From Terebella lapidaria (Eukaryota > Annelida > Polychaeta > Terebellida > Terebellidae), in NCBI GenBank assembly GCA_949152475.1, contig OX424564.1, forward strand, positions 27,836,165-27,900,164: 64,000 nucleotides of DNA, given 5' to 3'. Of this stretch, positions 21,640-63,738 are shown piece by piece. The position numbers and the translations under genes were made by a program. How positions within the stretch are numbered: position 1 is the stretch's first letter; every line of letters starts with the position of its first letter. Below the pieces are notes generated by a model that worked only from the letters and a program-made list of their open reading frames with translations, was not told the origin of the DNA and made no database searches.

Positions 21640-24600
21640 CAGCCATTTGGTTACTCTATCCGAGTGCTGCTATTTTATTTCCATGAAGGGCGAATAGCCA
21701 AGGCCACATCACAAGTTCACAGTCGACATTGTAAACATGGCCATTATAAATCCATTCTATAAAGAAATATTTCTTCCCATTTCCGAACACCATTTCATAA
21801 ATGGGGAGGTCGGAATAATGTCCTTGATGGGAAACATAATGTGTAATATAATTTCGAGCCTTGTAGGTTCTGTAGCGTCCACGTATACGTATAGTGTAAT
21901 GTTTACTGCTATCTAAGTGTAGATTGGTGTTCAAGATGACATACCGACAGTTAGAGTTTTCTTACAATTTTAATGTCATCGTCATATCATTCGGGGCATT
22001 ACTCAACTTCACTGGCGTCAACTCATTCCTTCTAGATAAATCAATACTTGTTTGTTGCATTCCAGTCTGTCACATACTCAATGTTTGGCTTTTCGTAGTA
22101 AAGCAACTGCTATTTTCAGCCAAAGAGATATTGCCACTTCAAAATCCTTCGTCTGCTGAACCCTGATGTTCGAAAGTCTGTTGTAGGCTAAAACCGAAAT
22201 TAACACCGAAGTATACAATGAAGCGAATTATAGTCTTATGCAAATTGCGTTGGTTTGCTGAGTTCCTCTGGCAGACATGGTGTGTTAGATTGTCCAACTT
22301 CTTCATCATATTCTATGTGGCACTGATGCATGTAATTTCATTTCAAATAACTGTGTTGTTGAATCATGATGACCATAAGTTGGTTAAGCTATTCTGGACA
22401 TTAATATGGCATCCAACTTGAAAAGTAAGTTTGATTTCCAAGTTGACCATAAATTGGTTAAGTTATTGTGGACATTAATATGGCATCCAACTTGAAAAGT
22501 AAGTTTTTGATTTCTCGTTTATGTCATACTTTTATGCAATGATCTACAGTTTCTGTCTATAAATTCTATATGTGTTTTCAATAGGCACAATTGCATGGGA
22601 TGTCGACTTGATATATTGACGTGATACTTGATATGCTTAGGTTGTGAACGTGTACATTATATCGATACTTTCTATATTATATTGTGTGTAATATATAGAT
22701 ACTTATAATTCTATGATTATCCATTGACCATATAAAAAAATTGGATATTTGTTAATAGAAGCTCAGGGTTGGGGATTCAATGGCCAAAATAGCAAACTCA
22801 CGTACATGACGTACAAAAGTATACTCAAAGCAAAGTATACAGCATGCCATGTGGCCAAAAAAAAACATAGACAATTTGAATTCCACATATGGCAGATTGT
22901 AAGCAGCTATTTCAAATTTATCGCACAATATTCATCTCGAAAAGTCTCCAATAAAAATACCTGACAAACTGCGATAATGAATTCCACAGCAAATGCGACG
23001 CAAGCGGTTTGCTATAAAACCGAAAACGTCCATGTTCTTTATTGCTACTTCAGATTCACAACAAAAAATATCACTGATTATCATGGGCTCACAATCGAGT
23101 GATTGTGTTATTTATCTATTTTTGTCATATCTAGGCCACTGCTGTAGTGGCAAAGAAGAGTCACCACCATCCGTGGCAGTCAATGTCTAAATGAGTGCCT
23201 AGGTAATAAATTCCAATTAGGGAAGACTTGGAATTTGAGTACCATGCGCTGTGCGCGGTCGAAAAGACACACCCAATAAATAACAGGATTAATACCAGAA
23301 ATGTGCAAAATTATGTGAGTGATATACTACAGATAAATTCCCTCTGGATCCGCGTAGATTTGTTAGGCGTTCCCCCGCATGATGGAGTGCATGATGATAG
23401 CAACACAATAAATCTGACACTGTCTGAAATGATGAGGTATCGCTGTAGCATTTTCAGATTAGATTGATGTTTGATTACTTATTACATAATATAACATCGG
23501 TCACCATTAGCGACTTATTTTTCACATCGGAACTAAAACATACATAATATCCAATGTATTTGATCAGACATAACATATGTGTCCTGTGTTTCTGGTGTCA
23601 TTGAATATCAAGACCTCAAAAATAATGCCCTTATCTCAAACATGGCGGAGAGTACCAGGTGTGACACTTCTACTCCTTGATAAATTAGCATATATTCACC
23701 AAATCAAACAAAGCAACATAACATAGAAGGCAGCAAATGAATATCAATATTATATATGGGCAAGATGAGAGTTCGAATTCAGTGACTATGTTTTATTGTT
23801 ACTTTTTCCATGTTATAGGCTGCAAAGCAAATCAAATAAAAATTCTACTGAAATGAGCATCTGTTTATTTCTTAGGTTGCCTTTGGATCTTGGTTGTCCG
23901 TCAGTTGTTTCAGCAATATCTTAGGAGAGACATCTGAGAAGAGACATACATGTCTAAAATAAAACGTATAAATTATAATAGAGAACGACGAAAATACATG
24001 TGGTTGCCCCTTGGCATACGTATGCTGAATCGACCCTCAAACATTTTCACCGGTCTTTGTCAATAGATATTTCATTCGGTCGATTAGACAACAGTTGAAA
24101 TATTTGATTGATGCATTCGGGGACACAGCTAGTCAAACGTTGTGAATTGTCTCGCTGTTAAGTGATGTGGTCTGTTTAGCAATGACAATGGTGGATTGGT
24201 TTACTTAGAAAAAAACTTTCCTCGTTTGGTTCATCCCTAGTTCTCATATATGCTAACATGTCAATTAGCCGTGGGAAGCCTTTGAATATCCGATAGTCTA
24301 TTTTCGTCTGCATCGACCCGATTCCAGACCTAATGAACACAAAACATTCTAGCCACAATAAACCTATCCTTTATAACTGTTCAAGTAGTCCAAGAAATGG
24401 TTGAACATTCAGTCTTGATGGATTACCTGTTGGGGTCGAGGAGGTGTAAATGTCAGTTAGTGTTTGGTGTTAGTGGAGATCGTAAAAGACAACAGGATAG
24501 TTGGAAAGTGTTCCAGATATGCCTCAAGTCTTCTCCGTGATTGATCACGTACTCTAATTATAAATATATATATACGTAAATATGCCTCATACATATATTG

Positions 24601-25808
24601 TCTCTTAATTTATATGAGACACACAAACTGCACAGGGAAATATAACGCCGCACAAAACCGAGTTTCATAGAATAAGTAAAACAAATTCAATCGATACTCA
24701 TATTTTTGTTCCAAAAGAGCGAACCTTTACTGAGACAGTTTCTGCACCTGAAGCATGAGATAAGGCAGTACAGTTGTCACTGTTTTGCATTAGCACCTTT
24801 ACCACCATCAGATGCGAGGACCAGGAACCAAAATCAGTTATCTCACACTACTATCATACAAATGGTGTGTGTTTTTATTTGAACGTGGGTTTATACGCCA
24901 CATGTTCTTATGTACAAACGCAAGTCTTACTTCTTAAAATTCATATGAATAAAATCCACTGCTTCACCTCCTGAATAATTTTGCTGTTTCTTCAGTTAGA
25001 ATTACTTTTTAGTTCAAATTACTTCACAAGCTGAAAGACAAGAAAGTGAGTTGAGTATCGAATAGTGTGGTCTATTTACAGAGACACATCTTTGAGAGTC
25101 ACTTAGTCAGACGTGAATTACATGTCCACACAGGCGAAAGTATATATATTATTTATGACACAAACCCTTATCGATCCATTCATTAATGTCTGGATTTCAA
25201 GCCATCAAAAAATAGCAAAGGTAAGCTATTGCACCAGATCATTATGCTGATACACTCTGCTGCACATTGCCCTGTTGGGAATGTAGACCATTTTTATCTG
25301 GTACAGTCATCTCTGTATATAGTTATCAAAATTCATTGTGTAATGACTTGTAATTGAGTATCATCTAATCTCAACAACCTGCATTTCTTTCTTCATCGGG
25401 CCATAATCAATACTGTATATGATAGCGATGCTTCATCATCCCAGACAATATCCGATTCATTTCTTTGTCATTATCAGGCATTCATAGTTATCCTACCTGT
25501 TCCATTATGCCGTGGGACTCTACAATGTGATTTATCGATCTTACGTAATTGTGTTCACTCCTATCTCCAGCACTGCAGGGGAATTCTTGTATCATGTAGG
25601 TAATTTCTGTGGTAGTGCCCAGCCGACCACACACATGTTATTGCTCCAAAAGCATTGAAGGGTTTCGTAATTGGAATGTATTACCCGAAGGAAGAATTAC
25701 ACATTAGAATGCTGGATGCCGTGTGATTGGCACTAGAACACTGGCCCAGAATCCACAGACAAAACTAGACGTCAAGGCCTGAAGATGCCTTTGAGCATTT
25801 CGACTGAA
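21640..25808 (+). repeat. Long unit A (degenerate ~4.5-5.2 kb repeat)
   Basis: Blocks found here recur in the same order and orientation at 27950-32760 and 49320-63738. Landmarks are CATTACTCAACTTCACT (about 21997), GCGTTGGTTTGCTGAGTTCC (22250), AGATTCACAACAAA (23051), TGTCTAAAATAAAA (about 23950), GTGGATTGGTTTAC (24189), GTTTTGCATTAGCACC (24782), GAGAGTCACTTAGTCAG (about 25090) and TAGCGATGCTTCATCATCCC (25423). No reading frame is conserved between copies. The unit is not assigned to a known transposon, satellite or gene. Confidence 0.75.
22369..22508 (+). repeat. ~70-bp tandem duplication
   Basis: Two adjacent copies of a segment containing GACCATAAGTTGGTTAAG and TTAATATGGCATCCAACTTG are found only in unit A. 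The other units have a single copy, so this is a local duplication. Confidence 0.85.
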
Positions 25809-25849
25809 ATTCATAGGTAAACATACGTTTAGCTCTACAACGCATTGTT

Positions 25850-26460
25850 TCCGAGATATGGCTGAAGAAGAAAAATGCCGACTCAGCAGAAAAAAACTTG
25901 ACCCAGGGCCAAGTTCACCCAACATACCGCTAAGATATGTTTGTCTAGTGTCACGAGTCCGAAAATAACGTCTGTTTCGCTGTAGGACGCACTGTTTCCG
26001 AGATATGGCCGAACATGAAAAATGCCAACTGAGCAAAAAAAACTTTGGCCCAGGGCCAAGTTTACCCAACATACCCCTAAAACATATTTGTTTAGTCTCA
26101 CGAGTCCGAAAATAATATCCGTTACACTCTATGACGCGCCTTTCCCGAAATATAGCCTAATGCCGACTCAGCCAAAAACATGAGGCTCACTGACAAGTTC
26201 AACCAACATACCCCCCTAAGACATGTTCATCTGGTGTCACGAGTCCGAAAATAACATCCGTTTCGCTCTACGATGCACCGCCTACGAGATGTTACGGAAA
26301 ATGCAAAATGTCGAATAAAATTTGGACCAGGGCCAAGTTCACTTAACATACCCCTAAGACATGTTTGTCTAGTGTCACGAGACTGCAAATAACGCCCGTC
26401 TCGTTTTATGATGCACCGTTTCGGAGATATGCAATGGACATCAAGGTAACTCACCAAAAA
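25850..26460 (-). repeat. ~140-bp minisatellite, about four units
   Basis: Units of about 138-148 bp repeat the order TTTCCGAGATATGGC, AAAAATGCCGACTCAGC, CAGGGCCAAGTTCACCCAAC, CATACCCCTAAGACATGTTT, GTGTCACGAGTCCGAAAATA. Open frames across it, repeating a FSFSAISRKRCVVERNG-like peptide on the minus strand, come from the repeat itself. The same units build the arms of the foldback element at 40430-42345. Confidence 0.85.
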
Positions 26461-26893
26461 TATTCTTAGCCTCTGGGTCGAAGGTCATTTGACAGATTGA
26501 CCCCATAATCAATATGGTTCCTCTGCGACAATATATCAACCTAAGTGGCAAGTTTCAGAATTGCAGCATAAGTCTAAAGTACTCTTCGAGTTATCATCCG
26601 GAAACCATTTTGACACAAAATTCATCCTCACAGACTAACCAGACTGCGGATTCATCTAGGGTTCATCTACATAATATATGTGATATTACTGTTGAAAATT
26701 TCTCGGATATTCGTCAAGGCGTTCTTGAGTTATCGTCCAGAAAGCGAAAAGTGAAAAAAAGGAAGAAAGAAATTCTGACAAAACCATAAGTACATTTCGT
26801 GCCGAGATGCCCTAATAATGACATATTCACTTGACTGTCAGGTGTTTGTTGAAACATTTATATTTGGCCATGTTACGAACATGCAGAAATTGA
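26461..26893. repeat. Flank of foldback type 2, single half copy
   Basis: From GCCTCTGGGTCGAAGGTCAT to GCCATGTTACGAACATGCAG this parallels 41056-41480. Together with 25850-26460 it is one arm plus centre of the 40430-42345 element, without the opposite arm. Confidence 0.75.
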
Positions 26894-26999
26894 CATCAGA
26901 AAAAAAAAACCGTCGCTTACTTCACAAATTAGTCCTTCAGTATATCAATTTAATAAATCATTCATTTCATGCAATGAATTTATTGTTTAACATATTGAT

Positions 27000-27312
27000 A
27001 CCACCAACTCAGTATCCTTTTGGCTTGTGATTAGGTACTTATGTACTTATCATATATCTATTCCATGGGGTTTGTTTCGGATTTCTGAATTATTTTCGTA
27101 GGTTGTTGGGCAGTTGTATACTAATTCCATCAGGTGTACAGTAGAAACAACTACATTAACCACACTGTCTGCCCCCGATGACGCCAGTGTGTCTTTTGAT
27201 AAATATTTGGTTTGGCTTTGTTTCCATTGCAAAATGTTGCATTTTATGTTTGTTATTGAAATCATCAAAATTCAGCGGTATTAGTGGTAATAGATTGATA
27301 CTTACATATTAT
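27000..27312 (+). repeat. R300 dispersed repeat, copy 3
   Basis: It begins at CCACCAACTCAGTATCC and matches the 3664-3990 copy throughout. The core reads CCCGATGACGCCAGTGTGTC, so the first T of CTGATGA is changed here. Confidence 0.75.
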
Positions 27313-27949
27313 TATTGTTTCCGAGGTTCTACAAACCGTTCCTTCAACATCTTGAATTTGTTCCCTTAGTTTGTGAACTAAATAGAGTAAAGGTTTATTA
27401 CACTGAGCTGATGACTGTTCTTTCAAATTTATTATGTCATTCGTTGAATTTATGTATTTATGAACACAAACATTTATAAACGATGCCTGCCAATACAAGG
27501 TACATCGCAATTTGTTCAATTGTAATTTGATACCAAACTAATCGCACCAGATATATTGATGTAGCTCAAGAATGCAATATATATAGGTTATACCCTGGTT
27601 GCTTCCTGATATGGTTTTTACGAGTGGTAATATCATATTCACCACGAGTGGATGAAACCATATCAGTTGCTACCATGTTATAATTTGTTTACTACATGAT
27701 TTATACTGTGTTAAATTGAAAACCAAAAGGCTATCAACATTAACTTGCACTGACAAATCAATAAAATGATCCATGCTTTTTGTGTGTTTTTCTGTTTACT
27801 AGTTCTACTCAGGAAAAGTCGTTAGATATCGTTTTGCATAGCCAGTGGAAAGAACATTGCATGTGATATGGTTTATATCATTCGGGTTTGGGAAAAGGCA
27901 ATCTATAAATGGAATATATGTACAGAGTGGTATTATCAAATGATAACAA
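27313..27949. other. Intergenic DNA with a hairpin at about 27603-27666
   Basis: TGATATGGTTTTTACGAGTGG and the later CCACGAGTGGATGAAACCAT form an imperfect inverted repeat of about 27 bp arms, MITE-like. A stretch at about 27355-27470 (CCTTAGTTTGTGAACTAAAT) resembles 56590-56700 in long unit D. No gene is seen. Confidence 0.45.
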
Positions 27950-29651
27950 CCCAGATCATATAATAAATAGGGATACTTCATCTTCCCAGGAAACGCCAGA
28001 TTTATCGCGTTATCGGTATCAGGATTACATGGTTATCCCATGTGTACCAGGACGATGAGGGAATCCACCTGCAATATAACATTCTTACGTAATTTTTTGT
28101 ATGTTTCCAGCCCTGCATAGGAATTATTGTAAAAGATATATTATTGAGATGGTGTTACCGGGTCAACCATTGAAAAAAAATAGAAAAAAAAATATGTCCT
28201 TTATTGCTTTTGAACTTCAGAATCACAACAAATAATAATACTATCACTGAATATCACGGGCTCACAATCAAGTGATTGTGTTATTTATCTATTTTGTCAC
28301 ATCTAGGCCAGTGCTGTAGTACGAAAGAAGAGTCACCACCGCCCGTGGCAGTCAGTGTCTAAATGAGTGCCTAGGAAATAAATCCCAATTAGGGAAGCTT
28401 TGGAATTTGAGTGTCATGCGCGGTCGAAAAGACACACCCAATAAATAACAGGATTGATACAAAAATTGTGCCAGACTGGTTTTAGACCATAAACAAAATT
28501 ATGTGAGAGTGATACATTGCAGGTAAATTCCCCCTGGATCCTGGTATATTTGTTTGGCGTTACTCCGCATGGTGCAATGGCTGATGTTAGCAACACAATG
28601 AATTTGGTACTGTCTGAAATGATGAAATTGTACTGTCTACAGGTATTGCCGTGGCATTTTTCGAATATATTGATATTGGATTATTTATCAAGTAATTTTA
28701 TATTGGTCACCAATAGCGATTTATTTTTCACATCCGAACTAAAACATAAATAATATCCAATGTGTTTGGTAAGACCTAACATTTGTGTCCTGTGTTCCTG
28801 GTGTCATTGAATATCAAAACTTAAAACATTATGCAGTCATCGCAAGCATGGTGGAGAGTACTAGGTATGACACTGCTACTCCTTGACAAATTAGCATACA
28901 TTCAACAAATCAAACAAAGCTACATAAAATAGAAGCAGCAAATGAATATCAATATTATATATGGGCAAGAGGAAAGTTCGAAGTCAGCTAACTATTTTTT
29001 ATTTTGTTTTGTTTTATTGTTACTTTTACCATGTAATAGGCTGCCAGAGCAAATCGAATAACAATTATAGACAAATGAGCATCTGCATATTTCTCAGGAA
29101 AGGCATCTGAGAAGAGACACATATGTCTAAAATAAAACCAATCTAATGTAAATTGTTATAGACAACAACAAAATACATATGGTTACCCCTTTGCATACGC
29201 ATGCTGAATCGACCCCCTAACATTTCAACCAATCTTCGTCAATAGAGATTTCATTCCGTCGATTAGACAACAGTTGAAATATTTGATTGATGCATTCGGG
29301 GACACAGCTAGTCAAATTGTCTCGTTGTTAGGTGATAGGGTTTGTTTGGCAATGACAATGATGGATTGGTTTGGATTTGTTTTTTTTCTTCGTCTACATC
29401 GACCTGATTTCAGACCTAAAACACACATACCACTCTAGCCACAATAAACGTGTCATTTATGGCTATTCAAGTAGTCCACAAAATAGTTGAACATTCAGTC
29501 TTGATGGATTACTTCCTGTGGTCAAGGAGGTGTAAATGTCAGTTAGTGTTTGGTGTTAGTGGAGGTCGCAAAAGACAACGGGATAGTTGGAAAGTGTTCC
29601 AGATATGCCTCAAGTCCTCTCCATGATAGATCACTTGTTCTAATCATAAAA

Positions 29652-29652
<1 letters not shown>

Positions 29653-29710
<58 letters not shown>
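29653..29710. repeat. (TA)n microsatellite
   Basis: About 29 TA repeats lie in unit B at the position where unit A has only a short ATATATATATAC tract. The array therefore expanded after duplication of the unit. Frames coding Tyr-Ile repeats are artefacts. Confidence 0.95.
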
Positions 29711-29711
<1 letters not shown>

Positions 29712-30145
29712 GTAAGTATGCCCAATCTAGCTATTTTCTCTTAATTTATGTGACACACAAACAGCAGGGTGGAAATATAACGCCGCACAAATCCGAAGAG
29801 CGAACAGCGACAGTTTCTGCACCTGAAACATAAATTATCTCGAAGTAACCAATTTTGAAGGAATAAGGCACTACAGTTGCCACCGTGATGTTTTGCATTA
29901 GCACCTTTACCACCACCAAATGTTCGGAACAGGAACCAAAATCAGTTACCTCCCACTACTATCATACCAATGGTGTGTGTTTTCATTTGAACGTGGGTTT
30001 ATACGCTACATGTTCTTATGTACAAATTCAAGTTTTACTTCTTAAAATTCATGTCAATAACATCCACTGCTTCACCTCCTGAATAATTTTGCTGTTTCTT
30101 CAGGTTAAAATTATTTCACAAGCTGAAAGACAAGAAAGTGAGTTG

Positions 30146-32030
30146 ATGATTTTCAAACATAGCACCAAGGGTGCTGTAGCTTACCGGCAATCATGTGAAT
30201 TGCATAGAATACTGAATACATATAAATTGTTACACTGATGTTAAAATCAATATAACAAAACATCTTCGTAAATGTTGATAGAAACACATTTTCTGTATGG
30301 ACTATAATACGAAATCAAGTTACATCTTGAAAGATTTTTTTTGTTAATGACAAATTTTCACAGATAGTCGATTCAAAGGCAACAAAACTTATAAACATCA
30401 CAAACGTACATAAGGATAATCTTATACATGATTTCGAGGAAAACTGTCTGAATAGATTTCGATGAAATGACCACCAAAAGCAAAATTCATCGTTTTTTCG
30501 ACAATAAAAGTCGTTTTGACCTTTCAATGTCATTGAAGGTCAAATTCAAGGTCACCACTCAAACTGCAATATATGATTTCCCATTTGAATGTGCCAATAC
30601 TTAGGCTCTATCTTGAAGTGTTCTATGAGATTACTCTGCATATCTCCCATTATGAAAGAAAATTTGGGTGAAATTTCCTAAGTCCAAAAAAATTTTCAAT
30701 GGTCGAAAAAAAACTTTTTTTTTGCTGGAAATGGCTCAAAACGAATAGTGACTTGATTTGGGACAAAAAAAAATTTTTTTGCCGACTCGTCAAAAAACCA
30801 AAATGGCCGCCCCACGCAGACCGTCATTCAAAGGCAACGAAATTTATACACATCACAAAGGTACATAAGGAGAATCTTATACATGATTTTGAGGAAAACT
30901 GTGTGAATAGATTTCGAGAAAATGACCACCAAAGGCAAAATTCATCGTTTTTTCGACAAAAAAGGTCGTTTTGACCTTTCAAGGTCATTGAAGGTCAAAT
31001 TCAAGGTCACCACTCAAACTGCAATATATGATTTCCCATTTGAATGTGCCAATACTTAGGCTCTATCTTGAAGTGTTCTATGAGATTACTGTGCATATCT
31101 CCCATTATGAAGGAAAAATTGGGTGAAATTTCCAAGTCCAAAAAAATTTTCAATGGTCAAAAAAACAATTTGCTTTTTTTTGCTGGAAATGGCTCAAAAC
31201 GAATAGTGACTTGATTCGGGACAAAAAAATATTTTTTTGCCGACTCGTCAAAAAATCAAAATGGCCGCCCCACGCAGACCGTCATTTCAAAGGCAACGAA
31301 ATTTATACACATCACAAAGGTACATAAGGAGAATCTTATACATGATTTTGAGATACCGTCCGAATAGATTTCGAGAAAATGACCACCAAAGGCAAAATTC
31401 ATCGTTTTTCGACAAAAAAAGGTCGTTTTGACCTTTCAAGGTCATTGAAAGTCAAATTCAAGGTCACCACTCAAACCGCAATATATGATTTCCCATTTGA
31501 ATGTGTCAATACTTAGGCTCTATCTTGAAGTGTTCTATGAGATTACTCTGCATATCTCCCATTATGAAGGAAAAATTGGGTGAAATATCCTGTCCAAAAA
31601 AATTTTCAATGGTCAAAAAACTTTTTTTCCAGCAACTTTTTTTTGCTGGAAATGGCTCAAAACGAATAGTGACTTGATTTGGGACAAAAAAAATTTTTTT
31701 CGCCGACCCGTCAAAAATTCAAAATGGCCGCCACACGCAGACCGGCGATTCAAGGACAACAAAACCTATACATGTCATAGAGGTACATGAGAGAGAAAAT
31801 GGCCACCAAAGTCCAAAATTGGCAATTTTTCGTCAAAAATGGCCGCCAAATCGGCAAAAACGATTCAATCAAAAAAATTTTAAAAAAGTTTTTAGAAATT
31901 GGCCTAAGGTATATTCTGACAAATTTAAGGGGAAATTCAACAAGCCAAAAAAAAGTGACAGATCCGGACGGACGCCGGACGAAAAACCACGATAATAGCT
32001 TATCGGCCCAAAGGGCCGGTAAGCTAAAAA
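30146..32030 (+). mobile_element. Hairpin-ended element with three ~460-bp internal repeats
   Basis: Comparison with unit A places the insertion between GTGAGTTGA and GTATGTTCTATTC. Near the left end is a hairpin, AGCACCAAGGGTGCT, then AGCTTACCGGC at 30178-30188. At the right end the reverse complement GCCGGTAAGCT (32015-32025) is the right arm of a second hairpin around CGGCCCAAAGGGCCG, followed by CTAAAAA. The centre has about three tandem units of 454-464 bp. Tandem repeats between hairpin-bearing ends resemble mollusc pearl elements and Helentron-derived INEs. No Rep/helicase gene is present, so it would be non-autonomous. The class is inferred. Confidence 0.68.
30370..31780. repeat. Three tandem ~460-bp units
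   Basis: GTACATAAGGAGAATCTTAT-type motifs lie at about 30407, 30861 and 31320, and AAAATGGCCGCC-type motifs near 30798, 31258 and 31722. Each unit contains several AGGTCA half-sites (AAGGTCATTGAAGGTCAAAT) and AAAAAAATTTTTTT tracts. No coding function is inferred. Confidence 0.85.
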
Positions 32031-32760
32031 GTATGTTCTATTCAACGAAACACATCTTCGATAGTCACTTAGTTAGACGTGAATTCCGAGTCCACATAGG
32101 CGAAAATATGTCTATTTCTTATGGCATATATCCTAATCGATCCATTCAGTAATGTCCACAGTTCAAGCCATCAAAAAATATCAATTGTAAGCTATAGCAC
32201 CAGATTATTTTTCTAACACAATCTGCTGCACATTGCCCTGTTGGAAATTTAGACCATTTTATCTGGTACAGTCATGTTTGTGTGTAGTTATCAAAGATTA
32301 TGGTGTAATGACTTGTAATTGAGTATCATCTAATCCAATAACCTGCATTTTTTTTCTCCATCTGGCCATACTCTACATATGATAGCGATGCTTCATCATC
32401 CCAGACAATAGCCGATTTATTTCTTTGTCATTATCAGGCATTCCATATTTATCCTACCTGTCCCAGAATGCTGAGGGACTCTACAATGTGATATATCAAT
32501 CTTACGTAATTGTGTTCACTTCTATCTCCAGCACTGCACGGGAATTCTAGCATCATGTAGGTAATTTCTGTGGTAGTGCCCAGTCGACCACACACAGTTT
32601 ATGGCTCTAAAGCAATGGAGGGGTTCTTAATTGGAATGTATTACCCGCAGGAAGAATTACACATTAGAATGCTGGATGTCGTGTGACTGGCACTAGAGCA
32701 CTGGCCCAGAGTCTAAAGAAAAATTTAGACGTCAAGCCTGAAGATGCCTTGGGGCATTTC

Positions 32761-33992
32761 GAGTAACTCCATGAATGACATATTTACAAAAAATTGTGCC
32801 CTCCAATCGGATCACACGAGAAATCTTTTTTTCATGTGAGAAACAAACGTTTGATATCAAGTTAATCTCACGACTGACTCATAGTAATATCCGTGGGACA
32901 GTCTATATTCAATTCAAAGCTTCTGGTTTAGGATCAAGGTGACTAATTCACATACTGATCATATGAGACATGATACTAAATTCGTTTCAACACCCAAGGA
33001 TGTCTGCGCATGAACTTTTAGAACATGATGACGTCACGGACACAAAAGTGTAACAACAATATGTAGCTCGAATCGAATATCACAAGTCAGATACTGTTTC
33101 TGAATAGAGAAAAATTCTCGTTACGATCTTTTAATATGTTATTAGCTGGTCAGGTTGTCAGTATTCATGTCAATCAAACAAATCAAAGAAACACCGTGAT
33201 TTCCCAGAATGTATTTGAATGCGTAAGAAAAAAAAGAATATAAGATGTTTCACATCAACACTTCCAAATGATGATAAAAAGACGAAGACAATTGGGACAA
33301 TATCATCCGAACAATATCCAATAGCTTCTGACCTTACCAACACCCATCTACAAGTTTTTTGGCTGAAAATGCCTAAAACCTATGTATTGATCCCTTGTAT
33401 TCAGCAAGAACCAGAAGTACAGTTTTGTCTCGTCTCAACTTGTAATAACTCTGATGCATGGGAACCGTGTACTTCGTTCGTCAGAACCCCTGGATAGACA
33501 GGGAGAGGAATACATGGAACTTATTTTCTTTAGACTGATGTTGGGCGATTGTATACAAGCATATACATGTATATAAACATGGCACTTACAAATGAACAAT
33601 AGCCAATTGTATTATATACTGAGTATGTGAAAGTTACAATAAATGTTAGGCCTACATATTACAAGAGAACTGAAATATAGCACCACTTAATTGTGAAAAT
33701 GGGAAATCTGAATGTTTATCTGAATGTGAGTGAACCGCAAACAAACTGTATGTTCGGAATCCGTCAATTCCCACGTCAAAATGCACGTATACCGAACACT
33801 CTGACAGGCGACGGAATGTACTGATATGTGAGTAGAAGACTTTCCTCGATGTGAACTGTTGGGTCTCCAATCATTACCGTGGTCGTTCAGTTGTTTGTTG
33901 TTGTTTTTTTTTTTCAAATTTATTCTGTTTTTCACACATGCCATGTACAACATACAAAAAAGATATCTATACATATAGCAATTCATGTAAAC
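32761..33992. other. Intergenic DNA, no gene seen
   Basis: I found no conserved frame or named repeat between long unit B and the LINE insertion at 34002. Confidence 0.4.
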
Positions 33993-35645: not shown

Positions 35646-35849
35646 TGCCTAATATATGATTGTAGGAAAAAATTGACTATGCTCTGCCAAACATTTGACC
35701 TGTTTTTTAATGTATTTTTCATGTATATAAGATTGTTTGTTTGCTATCCATGCACAATTATTGTAATGATAAATGTGGAAATTACCTTGTGCCATTTTAA
35801 TGGCGTGTAAGATCCACTTGAAATAAATATTTTATAAAAAAAAAAAAAA
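34002..35849 (+). mobile_element. 5'-truncated LINE with poly(A) and target-site duplication
   Basis: The insertion starts inside the reverse-transcriptase finger (LLPISGKILERI), runs to a stop at 35645, and ends with AATAAA (about 35822) and an A-run at 35836-35849. AAATACAGT flanks both ends. This is a textbook target-primed insertion. Confidence 0.9.
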
Positions 35850-35855
35850 TACAGT
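35847..35855. repeat. Target-site duplication, right (AAATACAGT)
   Basis: This matches 33993-34001. Its first bases merge with the poly(A) tail, so the exact boundary is uncertain by a few bases. Confidence 0.8.
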
Positions 35856-36037
35856 ACATTACAGCATGTGCTGCCGTGATCAGCCTGTAGCGAATGACAC
35901 ATAAATGTTCACATTAAACAACTATGTAATCAAATGTAGATGATTTGCATCACCATTTTGTTCACCAGAAATGCTTTGTACTTATATTATAAATGCGATT
36001 GATTATCAATCATAGGACTATTTCTGAATCTCGACCT

Positions 36038-38355: not shown

Positions 38356-38462
38356 ATTTTGTAGTGCTTTTCCCCTTTCAGAGACAGTAACAGTGCCTTC
38401 ACACGACTGTTGGTAATCAAAACGGAACCGTGACTCCTTGTAAAAAAATGTAGCAATGTGTG

Positions 38463-40424: not shown

Positions 40425-40429
40425 ATATC

Positions 40430-45180: not shown

Positions 45181-45430
45181 TTAAGTGCTGAGGGAATCGA
45201 ATTTTCGATTTGATTTATTCAGTGTATAAAAACAACATGACATGCACATACATATAATTGATAAAATACAATGGAATGACATGCATACTGACAGAATACA
45301 CTATGGATAGCGCCCAAAAGCATTGCTGCTTATTTCCAGGACGGTCCATTTAGGTGAAAGATGACGGTAGGCAAGATATGACATACAGAAATACGAGTAC
45401 ATATGAGTTGGATTGTTATAATAGGTGATA

Positions 45431-48953: not shown

Positions 48954-49319
48954 CTTTGATATTGAATCATCATCTTTAAATCATCATCTTTAAACCCGTA
49001 TGGTGCAAACAAAAGCAAAACACCAACACATTTTTTTTTTCAATTTCAAAAATATCATAGGTGGTCAAGGCCGAGGTTACGTCATTGTACAATGGTTTAA
49101 AGAGCTATGATTTTGATACACTTTTAGAGCTAATATCAATAAAATAATTGAAAACGGACCAAAATTTACCCGTTCGGATGTTTTTTTTTTGTCCAGTGTG
49201 AGATGTTTTGGACTAATGACATCTCGAAATTCAGCGATATTTCATTTGTGTCCAACTATAGTTCTATGTAGAGCACAGAAATGAAACTGGATACAGTTTA
49301 TTCTGTCTGAGTGTTATTT
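48954..49319. other. Upstream flank of the CR1/L2-type LINE, no gene seen
   Basis: TCATCATCTTTAAA is tandemly repeated directly upstream of the LINE start (about 48966-48995). This may be part of its 5' UTR. T-runs follow. No other gene is seen. Confidence 0.4.
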
Positions 49320-49770
49320 TATTGTCATGGATGGCGAACCGACATTGTTAACATGACCACCATTAATCCATTATGTAAAGAAATATTGCGTTTTTATCCA
49401 CATACCATTCCAGAGGTGGAGGTTTGAAAGTGGAGGTAGGAAAGTGACGCAAACTGGGAGGTCGGGTTGTGTCCTTGGTCGGAGTAATAACATGGAATAG
49501 ACCATCTATAGCTATCTATGTCAGTGCGGTGCACGTTGGATGGTTATATAGGTATTGAGATATCATGTGCTTCCATTAGAGCCTAACACTTACTGCTAGC
49601 CGAGTGTAGATTTGTGTCAAAATAGTGACACAAATCATAATCAATGAATGATATTTGTATATTTGTTTCGAAAATAATTTGTATTATTCCAATTTACAAC
49701 AATAAGGTTTTCTACGTACAACAAACCGACAATTTTCCTTTCCAACTTGTTTTGACGTTGCAAACTATCT

Positions 49771-49833
<63 letters not shown>

Positions 49834-52036: not shown

Positions 52037-52870
52037 AATTAGCCCAAGGGCTAAAAAAAGGTTACCGGACAATGTATATTTTAGATATTAGCTTTGTGTC
52101 CCATGACCTTGAAAATAAGGTCATTGGTCAATTCAAGGTCACGAGAACATTCAGCCCATATCATTTCTAGCATGTCCATAATTGATTCCTAAGCTGTAAA
52201 GTCGTTATCTGACCTTGAATGAGGTCAAAGGTCAAGTTCAAGGTCATGAGAATATTCAGCATATATTATTTCCAATATGTTCGCAACTGACTCCTGAGCT
52301 GTAAAGTCGATAATAAGTGAGATATTATCTTTTTTTGTTCTCTGACCTTGAAAATGAGGTCGAGGTCAAATTCAAGGTCACCAAAATATTCAGCATATAT
52401 CATTCCCTATATGTCCACTATGGATTCCTAAGCTGTGAAGTCGATGATTTTACCCATTTTGTTCTCTGATCTTGAAAATAAGGTCAAAGGTCAAATTCAA
52501 GGTCACCAGGATATTCAACATATATCATTTCCTATATGTTCACAATTGATTGCTAAGCTGTAAAGTCAATAATAAGCGATATATTAGCCATTTTGTGCTC
52601 TGACCTTGAAAATGAGGTCTAATATATCATTTCCTATATGCGCACAATTGATTCCTAAGTTGTAAAGTCGATAATAAGCGAGATATTGTGCTCTGACCTT
52701 GAAAATGAGGTCGGAGGTCAAATTCAAGGTCACGACAATATTCAGCATATATCACTTCCTATATGTCTTCAGTTGATTTGTAAGCTGTAAATTCGATCGT
52801 AAGCGAATTTTTAGCCATTTTGTGCTCTGACCTTGAAAAAGAGGACAAATCCTAGGTCTAGTATTGACAA
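52037..52870 (+). mobile_element. Hairpin-headed element with ~130-bp repeats
   Basis: It begins with a perfect hairpin TTAGCCCAAGGGCTAA, then A-rich sequence and GGTTACCGG. This is the same layout (hairpin, then TTACCGG) as the left end of the 30146-32030 element. About six units of roughly 130 bp follow, each with CTCTGACCTTGAAAATGAGG and AAATTCAAGGTCAC. The matching right-end hairpin was not found, so the element may be truncated or the right boundary misjudged. It interrupts long unit C. Confidence 0.6.
52100..52850. repeat. ~130-bp tandem array rich in AGGTCA half-sites
   Basis: CTGACCTTGAAAATGAGGTC-type motifs lie near 52101, 52212, 52342, 52464, 52598, 52691 and 52826. Several units contain AGGTCAAAGGTCA (52222-52234 and 52481-52493), a direct repeat of the nuclear-receptor half-site with one base between. 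Regulatory activity is only a possibility. Confidence 0.8.
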
Positions 52871-53106: not shown

Positions 53107-53345
53107 TTATCGATTATAATCGTAATGAAGACATAGAGACAAACCACGTTTCACTTTCGTGAGGATGCCTGTGTGTCTTTGGATATATAATTGGTCGGAG
53201 TTGATTTCTTTTCCAAAATGTATTTTAGGTTTGTTATTGACATCATCAAAATCTTGTAATTTTATTGTTAATAGTTTGATACTCGCATTCATATCACTGC
53301 GCCAGTGAAACTTATGGAGGACTTTATATCTGTCTCCACGGATAA
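53107..53345 (-). repeat. R300-related repeat, diverged
   Basis: Read on the minus strand it follows the R300 order (GAGTATCAAACTATTA, TTTTGATGATGTCAATAACA, then CAAAGACACACAGGCATC). A leading stretch (GGAGACAGATATAAAG...GTGATATGAATG) also occurs next to the 60354-60660 copy at about 60661-60715. That suggests the full repeat is longer than 300 bp. Confidence 0.55.
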
Positions 53346-54428: not shown

Positions 54429-54519
54429 ACAAAAACTTATGATTAGGAAGTTATGCGCATGTCATACACCTATTTCATGGGGTCGAGTTCCTGAAATCGT
54501 TTAATGTTGTTGTTGAGCA

Positions 54520-54700
54520 GTGGTGAACTAATCCCACTAATCCTGGTAGAAACAATTACATTTCATTCACCGTATGGCCCTGATGACATAAGTGTATCTT
54601 TGGATGAATATTTGATCGTGCTATCGTTCTATCCCGAACTTTTGCTGGTGATGGATTGATTTTCACATCGCATGTATTCAGATTGGATTGGTTTTGATTT
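54520..54700 (+). repeat. R300 fragment, diverged
   Basis: GTTGTTGAGCAG, GGTAGAAACAATTACATTT and CCCTGATGACATAAGTGTAT match the R300 order with many changes. Confidence 0.45.
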
Positions 54701-54860
54701 ACGTTGGTTAACATTAGTGATGTCTTTTTTCCCATCTGGAATAATACCCCATGCAAAACTAGGTGTCGGAACTGGGTTATTTATGCAGAACCCATGTCAC
54801 AGAGTTATGCTTTTGGTAAAAGGGAACATTCCTGTCATTTGCCTCTGATGTCTTTAGATA

Positions 54861-57800
54861 TCAAAGCATCAAACAAAATGTCATTACCACGAACATGGTG
54901 AGGGTATTAGGTGTGATACTCCGACCCGTTGACAAATCAGCATGAACTCGGCAGATGAAACAAGCAACATGAAAAAGAATCCAGCAAATAAATATTCCAG
55001 AGATGAAAACACATCCATATGTCTGAGGGTGTCTTTCGGCCTTGTTTGTCGGGAAGTTGTATCAACATTTCATCAGCTGTTAGGAGAGGCATCTAAGACG
55101 AGGCATGCATGTCTCAAAATAAACATACGGACTATTATTACAGAGAACGACAAAAAATACCTATAGCTCCCCCTTTTAATGTGCTCCATCGACCCTTAAC
55201 ATTTGCACATGTCTGTCGTCGTCGTAGATTTCTATTTCCTTTGGTCGATTCAAATGAGAGCAAATATGCAACAGTTGAAATGTTTGACTGATGCATTCAG
55301 GTACACCGCCGTTGGAAATCGTTTTATTAAGATTTAGATAGGACTTGTTTATGAACGACAATGATGGATTGAATTACCTAAACGACAACGTGCGTCAATT
55401 GGAGGGTGATTTTTTTATAACCTTTCCCTTAGGCAAACCACAAGTACACTTCACCCAGTTGTAGGAAACATTTGAATATCGAGTCTTCTCTGGTCCGAAT
55501 CGACTGATCGAATTACACATTAAGCCGGCTGCCTAGATATAATCAAAGCACATATAAAAAAATCAAGAAGTATTACACACCATCGTTTATATCCATCCAA
55601 GTAGTCCACGAAATGGTTGATCAAATAATCTTGATGGATTACCTTCTGTGGCCAGGGAAGTGTAAATGTCAGTTAGCTGTTTGGTTTTAGTGGATATCGC
55701 ACAAAGAGGGTATAGTTAAAACGTGATGTATATGGTGTGAAGTCCACTTCTTGTGATGGATCCACTTCTTGTGATTGTGATGTTCTGTATATAGTGAAGT
55801 ATATATGTTTCTGCATCCGGAGCATGAATTGTTTCTAATAACCGATTTTGAAAGAATACGCAAGACAATAGAGTTGACGCCCAGTGCACATAGTGTTCCA
55901 TAGCACAATTTCGTCGTACGTATAATATTCCGTTCCCAAAAATGAACAATTCGTTCCCACGACTAAACGAGCATACAACATAACAATTCATGTGCACAAA
56001 TCGTTGTGGAACGGATTACTATTTCGTTCCCACGAATTAAAAAGTATTTTTGGTATGTCACCTCAGTGGCTATATGAGGGACTCTACAGGGATGAATCAA
56101 TCTCAGTTGATTGTGTTCACTTCTATTTCCAGCCCTGCCCTGCAATTTTTAGACCAGTTGTGTCATTTGGATGGAACTGCCCAGTCGACCACACACGACT
56201 ATGGCTCACAAGCACTGAAGGATTTCCTAATTGGAAAGTATTACCTCCGCGAAGAATTACGCATTGAACGCTTGATACCGTGTGACTGGCACTACAACAG
56301 TGGCCCAGAATCTGGTACAACAACACTTGACCGTATTTTGTTGATTAATTTTTGCCCACGTAATAAACTTGCAGGGACTGTTTCAATTGATTTCTGATAA
56401 CTATAGATTTGTACGGTGTCCTCCATAGGACATAACACGAGAAGCAAGTAAATCGTAGTTAAATTTACAAACTGGTCCCCCAATATAATAATCGTTCATT
56501 CAATATATCATTCACACAATATACTAAATTGTTTGTTTGATATATTATATCGTTCCCACAATTTGACAAACTGTTCCTTTAAAATATGGAATTGTTTCCT
56601 CAGTTTGTGAAGTATATGGCATAAAGGCTTTATTACACTGGACTAACAATTCCTTGAATTTATTCAATTATTTATTAAATTTTTCCAAACTTTCCTCAAT
56701 TTAGTAACTTGTTCGCTCAATTTATTGAATTTTTTTTTCAGAAAACTGAACTAATTGTTCACCTAATTTATCAACTTATCAGTTCTAGTTGTTAAGTATA
56801 TCGAGCGAATGGTTTGTCGAACTGTGTGACTGATCTAATATATCGAATGAACAAAATATAATATTTTGTTCATTGGAAAAAAAATGTTTCTGGCCCAGCA
56901 CTGAATATTCCCGTTTTAGCCTCTTTTTTGTAAATTTCAGACTTTGTTGATTCAAGCCAGACATGAGATCTGAATGAACACAAGCTCACATATTTGTATG
57001 TGATATATCCCATGTGGTTCCTAGTACTACTCTCCGAAGTTCAAATCATCACAAAAAATATCAAGAGTAAGCTAAAATATCAAGAGAAAGCTACAACACA
57101 AAATGATAGGTTAACACTCTGACGTATATTGTGACCCAATGTAGGGCATGCAAATTTGTCTAATTACATCTTCACGTTTTGTTTTGTCTTGCGTGAAATG
57201 TGTAACGTGATAGACATCTGTAATAAAAATAAAAATGCTTCCTCCGATGTGTCGAAAGAACGCATAACTTCCACGTTGAGGCCCATTGTCTGTTATGTAT
57301 TGCTGTGAATCACGCCATGATCTGGTCAAGATTAACCATCATGGAAACTATCAGCGTTCGTAAAAGAATATTTACTACAATCATATATATGCAGTTTATT
57401 TCAACCAAATTTCCTCGGAATCTTCCTTGGAACCAGACATACCACCTCTTCTGGAATAAGTATCCTCTGATTTATATTCATGTTGCTTTATTGTCCGATG
57501 AATTCATGATAACGTAGCAAACAAGTTAAGTGTTATACCCAGTATTCCTCATAATGTTCATGGTGAATACTTTCAGATTGAGGCTACGATAATATTGAGG
57601 CAACAGAAGCACGTGCCACCGATATTTCGTCACACCAAGGAAAAAATATTTGTGAAATCAAGTAAATAAACATCAAAACAATTGGGAACAAACAAGTATA
57701 CATAATCACGCATGCTATACACCTGATATATTGCACCTTTCATGATATGATTGCACCTAAACACACCACATTTATATTCATCTAGCATGTGAATACAAAC
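54861..57800 (+). repeat. Long unit D (degenerate ~4.5-5.2 kb repeat)
   Basis: Landmarks: CATTACCACGAACATGGTG (about 54880, cf. 51254), GGAGAGGCATCTAAGACG (55084), GACAATGATGGATTG (55358), TTCCCAGCCCTGC-like and CCAGTCGACCACACACG (about 56179, cf. 25630 and 32582), and TCATGATAACGTAGC (57502, cf. 62129). A 115-codon frame at 56050-56397 spans a block shared with units A and B, but the other copies do not keep it open. I do not call it a gene. Confidence 0.68.
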
Positions 57801-60800
57801 TATAGCGATACTTTATCATCCCAGGCAACGCCAGATTTATTGTGTTGCCATTATCAGCATTAGACATGCATCCCATCTGTGCCGGGATACTGAGGGTATA
57901 GCTCGCAATATATCAGTCTTGCGTAATTTGATTCCCAGCCCTGCTCACGAATTATCGTATCAGTTATGTTATTTAGGTCGTGGTTCTCAGTAGACATTAT
58001 AATGTCCGTGGCATTCAAACACTGAACGGCTACCTAACCGGTGAATTTTTTTTGCACTTTGAATGTTATCATTATATATTCAGAGGCATTACCCAACTTC
58101 ACTACTATCAAACCATTCCACCCAATTCATGTGTTATTGCACTTCAATCCTGAGCTAAAAAGTATGCTAATTTTGAGCTGCCACCGCCATATTTTTTTAG
58201 TTCGCGTATGCCAACTAACATTTCGTATATATGAGTTAATATTTTGCAATTGTTAATTAATATTTTCAATTTACTATTTCGCATATACGAATTACTAATT
58301 CATGTATGTGGGAAAAAACTACATATGTTTAGCGGCTTATTTATTTTGCGGCTTACATTTGCAAAATAGTAAATCATATATGCGAAATAATAAATCGCTA
58401 TTTGCACAATAATAAATATATATACGTCGATGACAGCTCTACTCTACCATAGAAGAGAGATTGCCATCTCAGATTCCTTTGTCTACAAAACCCTTATGTT
58501 CGGAATCCGTTCTGATGATACACTAATGTACTCCACAATCCAATTAAGCACCAGATTATAAATAAGGCAACTATTATGCTATAGGAATGATATTAATGCG
58601 AATTGCGTTGGTTTGTCGCATTCCTCTGATGTTTAAGATGGTCTGACATTTTCATACTTTACGTGAAGCACTGATACTTGTATTGGCATCCAACCTGGGG
58701 AGTATGTTTGGTTTACAGCCTATTTAACCACATAAGCGATACAAAAATAACCTCCCATATTATAGTTTCAACCTATTACCTCTAGTGAATATCTTATCGA
58801 GCCCACGTGTCGAAGTGAAATGTACAAGACATGGAAGTAAAACAACGAGCGTGTTTTTTTAACAACTGCTTAGTTTTGTGATTTGTTACATAGTAATCTA
58901 CACCAGACCTGCAAAAGGGTCGGCGATAGAATTATCCCAGAAAATTACCACAATTTTGACTACGATATCATACAAGTATATATTTCATTTACGTTTCACT
59001 GAACATGTGAGTTCAGTGGTGGTCTTCATCGCCTCTTCCTCTGTGAAGTCATGATTACTGAAAATACTTCTGGTTTTCCTCACAACTTACTTCATAATTG
59101 AGAAAATTAGGAATCTACTGATTCCGTCTATAACGTATATGGCCCAAGTATCATATCCTGCGCTTTCCTCTATATACAATAATGAATAAAAAGGTGACAG
59201 ACGGATTAAATTGTATGCGTTTAGTGGGTGAGTTGTATTGTCACAGATGTTCTGCTTTTTGGTAAGAGGGAACATTCCTGTCCTGTGCTTCTGATGTCTT
59301 TAGATATCAAAGCATCAAACAAAATGTCATTATTTATGCAGAACCCATTTATGCAGAACTCATGAATGGTAAGAGGGAACATTCCTGTGGTGTGCTTCTG
59401 GTGTCTTTGGATATCGAAGTGATTATTGTCAAACTCGTTGACAAACCAACATAGACTCGGCGGATGAAACAAGCAACATGAAATAGAACCTATCCAAAAA
59501 ATATTCCAGAACATATACTTATTTCTGAGGATGCCTTCGGGACTATGTTGTATGAACATTTCGTCAGGTGTTGGAGAGGCGTCTAAAACGAGACATGCAT
59601 GTCTAAAAATAAAAACCAACAAACAGCTTTTACAGAAAACGACAAAATACATATAATCCACCTTTTTCGTGTGCTGAATCGAACCTCAACTTTGTCCATG
59701 GGTCTGTTGTCCAAAGAGATTCACTTCGATTCAAATCAGAAATGGTAGCAGTTATGGAACAGGTGAAATGTTTGATTGATGCTTTCAGAGGCACAGCTGT
59801 TGTAATCCTTGTGGTTTGTTTTATTGGGATATGGTGGGACCTGTTTATGAACAACAATGATGGATTGGTTTACCTAAAAAGACCATCTTCGTCCTTTGAT
59901 GTGTTTCTTCTACCTTTCTTTTATGTCACCTACTTGACATGTAGGAAACCTTTGAATATCAAGTGTCATTTTGATCCACACGGACCTAATTCGAGTTAAA
60001 CATTAAATCCCACTTCTTCGAATGATCTTATACACATATGAAAAATCTAGCAGCAATGTTGGTTGATCATATAATCTTGATGGATTACCTCCTGTGGTCA
60101 GAGAGTAATAAATGTCAGTTAGCTTTTTGGTTTCAGTGGATACCACACAACAAGGGGATAATTAATTCGTGATGCAGATAAGTGTAAGTCAACTCGTGAT
60201 GTATCATATGTTTTACATATAGAAGTATAAATATTTCTGCATCCGAACCATGAATTGTTTCTAATAAAATGAATTTGTAAGAATAGACAAGGCAATGGCA
60301 GTGTTCGATAGAACGATTTCATTGTTATGCACGTCACGATTATTAAAGATGTAAGTATCAATCTATTACCACCAATATAGCCAAATTTTGATGATTACAA
60401 TAACAAACGTAAAATACAACATTTTGCAATAGAAACAAAGCCCGACCGTATACCTTATCAAAAGACACACTGGCGTCATCAGGGGCAGACAGTGTGGTAA
60501 ATTTAGTTGTTTCTACTGTACACCTGATGGAATTAGTATACAACTGCCCAACAACCTATGGAAATAATTAAGAATCCAAAAGAAACCCCATGGAATAAAT
60601 ATATGACAAGTACATAAGTACCTAATCACAAGCCAAAAGGCTACTGAGTTGATGGTATCCTCGGAGACAGACTTAACTTCCACCAGCAGTGACACCGGCT
60701 CAGTGATATGAATGTAAGTATCAATCTAATACCACCAATAAATGTAAATGTGTTCACATTTACAATATACTCGATTACCAATATGTGTCACGGTGATGTT

Positions 60801-62319
60801 TTGCATCAACCCTTTAACACCATCAGAAGTTCGGAACAAAAAGTAGCATCCGTTATTTCACACAAATATTATATACAAAATTTGTCTACATTTGAAAGAA
60901 TGTGTATGCTACGCGTTCATATTTACACATGCAAGTCTCATTCCCTGATAACCATGTGAATATAATCCACTGCATCACCTCAGGGACGATTTTGCTGTTT
61001 GAATGACAAGAACCTGTGATGAGAACCGTTGCTCGTTTGGAATTGAATTGTTTTTTTTTCCAGAAATGGTCTGCAAATTACTTTTTGTGTTACAAAACAC
61101 AGTAGGACAACTCACATTCGCAACGACGAAATGACACTCTAGACAAGAAGGGGTTGAATTAATGACACCACTTGTGTTAACGCAGACATGGTGTGAACAA
61201 TCTTTTTAACACTAACATTTTGGTGATATACCTGGTACGAAATTCAAATGAAGGAAGAAGTTTGTTCTGAGTTTCCACCAGCATACTTTCAATGTACTTA
61301 TTTTAGCCTTGTGCATTTATTGGTCATTAGTGTGTGTCATTTATGTTCAGTTTAATTCATTATTCTGAATTACTAGTGGTACACATATTAAATCATGTCT
61401 CGTAAATGTGTCCATTATATTAGTTACTTTTATTGTAACAGTCGACGGGGTACATGGTATAGGTTCAGAAATGTTCACACGACTTTGTGTGTACATGTAA
61501 TGAATCAGGCACAACAGTACATGCACTTCGAGCACCGACAATTTGCAAAGCAAAATACTTCAAGGAACAACAACAAATTTCAATAATTCACAACAATAAT
61601 AATAATTCAGGCCTGAATAATGTTTACCACATGTTTCGTACAAAAATATTGCATCCATGCAATTCACATGTGGATGATTCTTCAATTTTATAATCTTGAT
61701 CGTTGAACATTGCCACAGAAAATCGAGGAATTCGATGTATTGGGTATGTCTTTTTCCCTTCACTGTATGGCAGTACAAAAATAGATGAACAAAAACACAT
61801 TTGAAATCATTTCAGTTATAATCTGGTGATAATAAAAATCTGCAAGGAATAAAAACATTTCAAAATATGTATCTAAAGAACACATCTTGAGGATCAATGT
61901 ATGCATTGTATTTCTCTGAACCATGCCTTGATCTAGTCAAAGTTAACCACCACAGGAGCCATCGCAGTGTTCGTGAAATATTATTTATTACAACCATATA
62001 TATCCAGTTTATTGCAACCAAATTTCCTCGGAATGTCAATGTCTTTTTGCCACGGAGCAGATATACATCCTCTTCTGGCATAATCTTCCTCTGAATTCTA
62101 GTCACGTCGCTTTATTTTCCGCGGAATTTATGATAACGTAGATTAGAGTGGAATGGTAAATACATTTTGATTGAGGCTGCGCAATACTGAGGGGGACAGA
62201 AGCATGTGCCAGCGATATTTCGCATAAAATATACATAATCATGTCTTCTATGATATATTGCACCTCTCCACTACCTAAACACCCCCCATTAAAGTTTATC
62301 TGGCACGTGAATATAAATT
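57801..62319 (+). repeat. Long unit E (degenerate ~4.5-5.2 kb repeat)
   Basis: Landmarks: TATAGCGATACTTTATCATC (57801), GCATTACCCAACTTCACT (58089), TGCGTTGGTTTGTCG (58605), ATGATGGATTGGTTTACC (59855), GATGTTTTGCATCAACCC (60797), CCTTGATCTAGTCAAAG (61925, cf. 57318 in D). The spacing to the next TATAGCGATAC at 62319 is about 4.52 kb, the best estimate of the period. An R300 copy lies inside. Confidence 0.72.
60354..60660 (-). repeat. R300 dispersed repeat, copy 4
   Basis: It is the reverse complement of 3664-3990 and one of the best-preserved copies. Just after it (60711-60745) GAATGTAAGTATCAATCTAA repeats the left edge of the copy, so the element has a direct partial repeat at both ends. This could be a tandem start or a terminal direct repeat. 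Confidence 0.8.
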
Positions 62320-63738
62320 ATAGCGATACTGCATCATCCCAGTCAACGCTGGATTTATTGTGTTACCATCATCAGCATTACACATGCATCCCATATGTGC
62401 CAGGATACTGAGGGTATAGCCAGCAATATACAAGTCTTGTGTAATTCGATTTCCCGCCCTGCTCACGAATTACCGTATCAGTTATGTTATTTAAGTGGTG
62501 GTTCTTAGTCGACAATGCAATGTTCGTGGCTTTCAAACACTGATTGGCTACCTAACTGGTGAGAAGTAGCACATTTGACAGTTAGTTATTGATGTGTTTT
62601 CACATATATTTACTGCTATCCTAGTGTCGATTTTTGTCAAAATAATGAGAGCTAAATATATGTCTTGCATTTTGAATGTCATCAGAGCATTACCCAATTT
62701 CACTATCATCAAACATTCCACCTAATTCTTGTTTTATTGCACGTCAATCCTGAGCTAAAAATCAGGACATCGTAGTGCTACCACCGCCATATTTTTGGCG
62801 TTTATATTTGTGAGTTGATATTTTGCAATTAATAATAAATATTTTCCATACAATTTACTATTTTGCACATACGAACTTCTTATTCATATATTTCAATTTT
62901 TTTTTCATATGCATGGCGGCTCATTGGTATTTGTAAAATATTCAATCTTATATGCAAAATAGTAATTCACATTTGCAAAACAATAAATATATGGTGGTGA
63001 CAGCTCTACGCTGCCATAAAAGTGAGATTGCCATCTCAAATTCCCCTGTCTGCAAAACCCTGATGTTGGGAACCCGCTCTGATGATATACCAATATCGGC
63101 TACAATGCAAACAGGCACCAGAGAGGCAGTTCATATTCTGGGGGAGTGATATTATGCAAATTGCGTTGGTTTGCCGAGTTCCTTTGTGTGATGCTTAATA
63201 TGCTCTGACATTTTTATACTTTACGTGAGGAACTGATGCTTGTAATATTTTTCAATAACTTTTGCTGTTGAATCATAACGACTATCAATTGAAAAATAGT
63301 TTGACATCTAACTAAAAAAATATACCGTGTTTCCAGCCCTCATAAACCGAACTGCCATCTAAACTATACAATAACTTCCCATCAGGTATGTATCAACGTA
63401 TTACCTAAATAGGATATGTTATCGAGCCCACGTGTCGAACTGGAAAGTACAAGACATGGAAACAAAACAACGAGCGTGTGCTGTATACAATTGCTCAGTT
63501 TCGTGATTTGATACATAGCAACAAACATAGCAATTACATCATGCCAGATAGCCTAAAAACTTAAAACAGATTGTAGCAGATTGTAAAAAGCTATACGATT
63601 ATTCCAATGTCGTAATGAATCGCACAGAAAATTTAATGCAAGTGGTCTTCCAAAAAACCCAAAAAAGTCCATGTTGTTTACTGCTTTTGAACGCAAGATT
63701 CACAACGAAGACTGATTAGTGATCACCATGGACTTACA
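62320..63738 (+). repeat. Long unit F (degenerate ~4.5-5.2 kb repeat, truncated)
   Basis: It follows unit E block for block: CGATACTGCATCATCCC (62323), GCATTACCCAATTTCACT (62688), TGCGTTGGTTTGCCGAG (63163) and AAGATTCACAACGAAG (63697). It is cut at about 63738 by a LINE fragment, and the window ends soon after. Confidence 0.72.

Follow-up and report, generated by a model that had tools for sequence, protein, structure and literature searches.

A worn tandem array of 4.5- to 5-kb units, probably an ancient segmental duplication at a single locus

Six repeated units, here called A to F, lie in one order and orientation within the DNA described here, an observation first made in an earlier note on this DNA and confirmed by our analysis. 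We suggest, with a probability of roughly 70%, that they are the remains of a segmental duplication that is ancient and specific to this locus, tandem and in part inverted, and that is now non-coding, has not been homogenized, and has been broken by later insertions. By the tests we ran, the array would appear not to be a mobile element or to belong to a satellite family. The window, meaning the whole stretch of 64,000 nucleotides that we analyzed, is C11:27836165-27900164 of a 761.6-Mb assembly in 438 contigs; its content (LINE-type reverse transcriptase frames, a Gypsy-type LTR element, and dispersed short elements) resembles, in our judgment, that of an animal genome. The LTR pieces of the Gypsy-type element, at 9090-9929 and 14253-15094, are 99.3% identical. 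Nothing in those portions of the literature that our searches reached was recognized as this locus.

Results

Once visible mobile elements had been masked, comparison of the window with itself (E ≤ 1e-3) gave 58 direct and 17 inverted matching pairs; each of 20 dinucleotide shuffles gave none. Direct matches account for 88% of the unmasked bases of A, 87% of B, 72% of C, 71% of D, 73% of E, and 85% of F, and outside the units they are absent from the left flank (0 of 3821 unmasked bases) and from two gaps (0 of 927 and 0 of 1217); inverted matches do take up 430 bases of that flank. Landmark order was concordant in 103 of 103 testable pairs outside module X, in a test that dropped matches with both ends in that module and that requires more than one direct match between two units (A-B, B-F, D-F, and E-F have one each). 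The offsets between units are 5162 from A to B, 4444 from D to E, and 4518-4622 from E to F, where the earlier note gave about 5.17, 4.49, and 4.52 kb. The sequence TAGCGATGCTTCATCATCCC occurs at five places when up to three mismatches are allowed, against 0.01 expected, and a 20-mer quoted in the earlier note has exactly two occurrences in the genome, both inside the window. Inverted matches other than those of module X number five: one joins A and D, and the four between E and F represent an AT-rich palindrome at 58171-58451 and 62769-63020. Fixed module order and colinear direct copies bear out the view that this is a worn tandem array and not a set of scattered insertions.

Profile searches give the module order as end, X2, front, Xr (in some units), Y, tail, and X1, and no unit has all seven. 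All units are on the + strand. Unit A (21383-25814) comprises front (21890-23129), an inverted Xr (23128-23457), Y (23539-24608), tail (24770-25057), and X1 (25410-25753). Unit B (27951-32772) begins with X2 (27951-28174) and continues with the last part of front (28193-28301), an inverted Xr (28300-28637), Y (28745-29666), tail (29873-30149), and X1 (32370-32714); at about 30147-32026 it carries an insertion not present in A. Unit C (49074-52049) has a left segment shared with A (within 49074-49428), front (49572-51226), Y (51187-51837), and a stub of tail (51978-52036). In unit D (54790-57799), Y (54801-55869) is followed by an X1 without its 5′ part (56075-56312) and by an end module (57210-57799). 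Unit E (57786-62316) carries X2 (57786-58049), front (58019-59110), Y (59242-60297), tail (60781-61023), and an end module (61832-62316). Unit F runs from 62303 to the window end at 64000 with X2 (62303-62592) and front (62592-63770); the earlier note had closed this block at 63.7 kb, and the Y of F lies beyond the window at 64191-64926 in window coordinates, so that the unit continues to about 64926. By profile, X1 is missing from E, X from C, front from D, and most of front from B: the units have each lost pieces of their own. A + strand remnant between A and B (26893-27451) matches D at 56435-56682 and is interrupted by a dispersed element (26996-27307); 121 of its 637 unmasked bases (19%) have a direct match. 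Further pieces of units were found by profile to the right of the window, at 72.4-73.2, 76.7, and 115.7 kb.

Head-to-tail copies do not make up the whole array. A model of the Y core sequence, built from eight of the ten copies it detects, found six direct and four inverted copies in 264 kb around the locus. Two of the inverted cores are in the window, r20 (20369-20646, - strand) and r45 (44898-45154, - strand, between two LINE pieces), and inverted Y pieces lie to its left at -15.0 and -20.2/-21.2 kb. In the Y-core tree the four inverted copies are split from the six direct ones by a 100/99 branch and form a clade of their own; A and B are set off by a 100/98 branch, and five of the seven inner forks are open. 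The start of Y is also present, in partial and inverted form, within the end module.

A unit can hold module X in as many as three places: X1, X2, and the inverted Xr inside A and B. X1 of A and B group at 99/97, with X1 of D joining at 92/93; X2 of E and F group at 100/99 and Xr of A and B at 100/100, and X2 of B sits on an open fork. The three are therefore mostly separate lineages that group by position. It had been argued that adjacent units join cyclically, the block that ends A and B being the one that starts E and F. That argument is not supported: it mixes X1 with X2, which are diverged paralogues; X2, not X1, is the block that starts B, E, and F.

Units differ at about 14-39% of aligned bases. 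For Y, where A and B are the least diverged pair, the K2P distance is 0.15 for A-B, 0.31 for D-E, and 0.35-0.48 for other pairs, and the tree places A and B (100/100) apart from C, D, and E, with D-E at 80/84. The A-B distance is 0.09-0.18 when Y, tail, X1, and Xr are considered (0.13 for X1); E and F are at 0.15 in X2, near that X1 value, versus 0.37 in front, and the highest value between units is 0.56. Taken with the trees, these distances indicate that most copies have diverged and have not been homogenized.

An element with 147-bp repeats follows unit A (25815-26895) and has related copies within 40422-42311. The insertion in unit B (30147-32026, about 1.9 kb) contains a 455-bp repeat in 3.1 copies and, toward its right end, a palindrome, and is absent from A at 25054/25061; D seems to lack the dispersed element in the A-B gap. 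Since these insertions are missing from sister units, they must be younger than the duplications. Between B and C lies a block (33855-48980) with open LINE-type reverse transcriptase frames, a palindrome of 147-bp repeats, and r45. The earlier description of a 16-kb block of retrotransposons splitting the array is right as to the split by mobile elements and needs amending as to content, the block including an inverted piece of unit at 44.9-45.2 kb.

Three candidate sources of the repeated sequence were considered and dropped. A LINE 3′ end as the source of Y was set aside by inspection: r45 sits directly after a LINE tail and itself lacks one. Four proteins of neighboring genes had no match to the window at E ≤ 0.1, and a Penelope-like array on the right shares with the units just a simple TA repeat and a dispersed element of 300-400 bp. 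Genes with a CNPase domain are found to the left of the array.

Taken together, the coding tests point to an array that is non-coding now. The claim that no reading frame is conserved came with a proposal to check coding potential; we ran substitution-phase, codon-score, and column-shuffle tests, and the claim stands, with no clear excess and weak local signals in X. Substitution phase was unremarkable in seven of eight pair blocks; in the E-F block, a single 150-column window of module X has 14 of its 19 substitutions at one codon position, which 6 of 300 shuffles reach. Indels in multiples of three were 37 of 195. Codon-score tests on 48 pair alignments, which omitted matches shorter than 150 columns and those with masked bases (the 2-kb A-B match was one of these, and was covered by the substitution-phase test), left two alignments that stood at 0 or 1 of 60 simulations. 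That is roughly as many as chance would give, though both lie in module X and in the same frame. X2 of E and F is gapless in one alignment and 87% identical versus 71% for the front block (MAFFT); a second aligner gave 87-88% versus 72-87% for other windows. The longest frame is unremarkable in five of six units, the exception being a 154-aa minus-strand frame in E, a length reached by 3 of 200 random sequences. Six-frame Pfam scans covering units A to E, with the gap to the left of D included (stops written as X), gave nothing at the curated cut-off; a B12D match in unit B scored 18.3 bits against a cut-off of 21.5 over 21 residues inside the 455-bp repeat.

The weak signals in X and the frame in E could be traces of an old gene, and one might accordingly propose that the array was once a cluster of protein-coding genes from a fast-evolving family, laid out in both orientations and since decayed, with X and Y as exon remains. 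We regard this as unlikely. It would accommodate the copies in both orientations, including the composite of end and X (57210-58049 and 61832-62592 in + orientation) and its inverted counterpart adjoining Y in A and B, as well as the codon signals in X; an inverted X copy also reads through an NPxxY-like string, which we take to be a GPCR motif. However, column shuffles of 24 gapless multi-copy segments gave no clear coding signal (best 13 of 400), close copies differ in single-base indels and stops, and ten X frames had no receptor match in Pfam at E ≤ 10, with two weak other matches below cut-offs. Searches of the genome at the protein level returned local fragments and one weak match elsewhere each: the E frame had eight matches, seven at the locus (itself and pieces) and one on C16 (E 0.225), and the Xr frame of B had four, three at the locus and one on C3 (E 0.155). 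With no receptor match and negative column shuffles, a GPCR origin was dropped. Sequence searches of the PDB yielded three matches, one with an E of 0.6 and the others near 1; a frame of Y had none.

A related proposal, which we consider improbable, holds that at least ten copies of one module, divided between two orientation clades, form a locus-private, lineage-specific array descended from a gene family, or a non-coding RNA gene, foreign to Pfam and Rfam, and of which some relatives may keep working copies. Selection on the array itself, as a non-coding RNA or regulatory array of the kind some macrosatellites represent, seems to us quite improbable. In its favor, the modules are still recognizable, at about 60-88% identity across old copies, and long copies are at one locus. 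Yet Rfam found no match at gathering scores over the window, and consensus structure in X, the module that was folded, is nearly absent, with 7 pairs and -1.43 kcal/mol. Identity is also fairly even along A-B (windows of 0.81-0.93) and D-E (0.78-0.84, with one window of 0.93), and large parts of units are gone. At E ≤ 1, two miRNA models hit E and F at the AT-rich palindrome, scoring 27.1 and 23.4 bits where the cut-offs are 100 and 171. ARAGORN found no tRNA.

The earlier note had also asked for copy number and location in the genome. Five blocks (Y, X1, front, end with X2, and r20) were searched as DNA against the whole 762-Mb assembly, the counts being lower bounds. Y had at least 14 matches, 12 of them at the locus; the other two are 40 bp each and fall on the 40 bases with which the query opens, ahead of Y proper. 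X1 had at least 15, three at the locus and 12 elsewhere, the latter 35-46 bp long and all to the last bases of the query, which resemble the edge of a dispersed element. Every match of front (8 of 8, at least eight), of end with X2 (5 of 5, at least five), and of r20 (5 of 5, at least five) was at the locus. No match longer than 46 bp lay away from the locus, in searches that partly missed local copies of about 60-68% identity: X1 did not return the known local copies of X2 and Xr, and Y returned one of four known inverted Y cores, missing r45 and the two to the left. Since known local copies were missed, relatives of like age elsewhere would be missed too. Within that sensitivity, the long matches fall at a single locus, and the idea of a giant satellite, as a repeat family, loses its footing. 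Exact-pattern scans of viral and genome contig collections for outside relatives gave nothing.

A mobile element or satellite of unknown type, to which the repeat-rich surroundings, the direct and inverted copies, and the ease with which very old copies would escape genome searches might point, is very improbable given that matches longer than 46 bp occur at this locus alone in 762 Mb and that six-frame Pfam scans found no transposase, reverse transcriptase, or integrase inside units A-E.

Discussion

An ancient segmental duplication, our preferred reading, calls for several copies that share order, orientation, and site, which is what we find, and for restriction to that locus, which holds at a search sensitivity that misses some local copies of about 60-68% identity. 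Dispersed copies, as of a transposable element, did not appear at the same sensitivity, and in place of a long homogenized array of many similar copies, as of a satellite, there are six units and pieces. Of the earlier interpretation, the worn tandem array survives and its option of a decayed multi-copy locus is supported; the giant satellite and the cyclic junction, as argued, are not supported.

We suspect that the founder, some 4.5-5 kb long, already consisted of smaller modules that had themselves been duplicated (X in either orientation, Y together with part of it in inverted form), and that it was multiplied in place by local tandem duplication. Copying may have proceeded by unequal crossing-over or by replication-based duplication, and at least one inversion or inverted duplication would have split the two orientation groups. 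Afterwards the copies would have drifted as non-coding DNA without homogenization, suffering deletions and taking in LINE, HINE-like, and other insertions. The founder may have been a lost gene, regulatory DNA, or plain spacer; most likely, the array does nothing specific at present.

The locus shares with local tandem segmental duplications and decayed multi-copy loci its single site, its ordered multi-kilobase units with A and B most alike, its later insertions and deletions, and its want of visible active function; it differs in being more tangled, with two orientation groups and internally repeated modules. Macrosatellites and megasatellites, such as human DXZ4 and the LTR arrays, also consist of tandem kilobase-scale units, and the human LTR arrays also contain pieces in both orientations (PMC2588610). 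The present array differs in being six worn units and pieces at one site, without homogenization.

The array illustrates how far unhomogenized local duplication stays traceable, module order being intact in all testable pairs at 61-75% identity. Should the founder have been a gene, this would be a case of an entire cluster lost in place; otherwise it is a caution that a new-looking repeat in a single window can be private to one locus.

The 5-kb units are unlike the tandem repeats carried by HINE/Helentron elements of oyster (PMC7492417), and the likeness is limited to the insertion in unit B, whose anatomy resembles that of these elements and which may be HINE/Helentron-like.

A Young Tandem Array to the Right of the Window

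Beyond the right-hand edge of the window there lies a second, young tandem array; it occupies C11:27964522-28000000, and perhaps extends further (128358-163836 when window coordinates are continued into the flank; pieces L009-L012). At least seven units are present, each of about 4.92 kb (one step is 5.4 kb), and they are 96.7-99.9% identical to one another in blocks. Every unit contains a minus-strand frame of 770-775 amino acids, and a domain scan of one copy detected RVT_1 and a weak GIY-YIG in it, domains from which we take the frame to be Penelope-like. A second frame, of 447-574 amino acids, is found in six units, and in one unit it is split; its scanned copy holds a NADAR domain (6e-16). 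NADAR is reported in ORF1 of an oyster Tx1 LINE and in an algal Gypsy element (PMC12477816).

Other Elements and Frames

The insertion at 30147-32026 in unit B of the old array is HINE/Helentron-like in its anatomy. Its 455-bp repeat is present three times and its right end forms a palindrome; unit A lacks the insertion. Four copies of a dispersed element roughly 300-400 bp long, at 3667-3974, 21037-21334, 26996-27307, and 60349-60740, are 90-93% alike over about 300 bp; the element also occurs at 53157-53289 and 54436-54669. The 147-bp repeat element is found at 25815-26895 and 40422-42311; at 40.4-42.3 kb, two copies meet head-on around approximately 41.49 kb, forming a large palindrome.

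To the left of the old array, two CNPase-domain frames, one in each of two C11 pieces, lie in opposite orientation (L020:2808-4265, adjoined by an AAA_33 frame, and L017:5098-5823). The LTR element at approximately 9.1-15.1 kb is bordered on both sides by 20-bp tandem repeats (8484-9091 and 15261-16090), inverted relative to each other.
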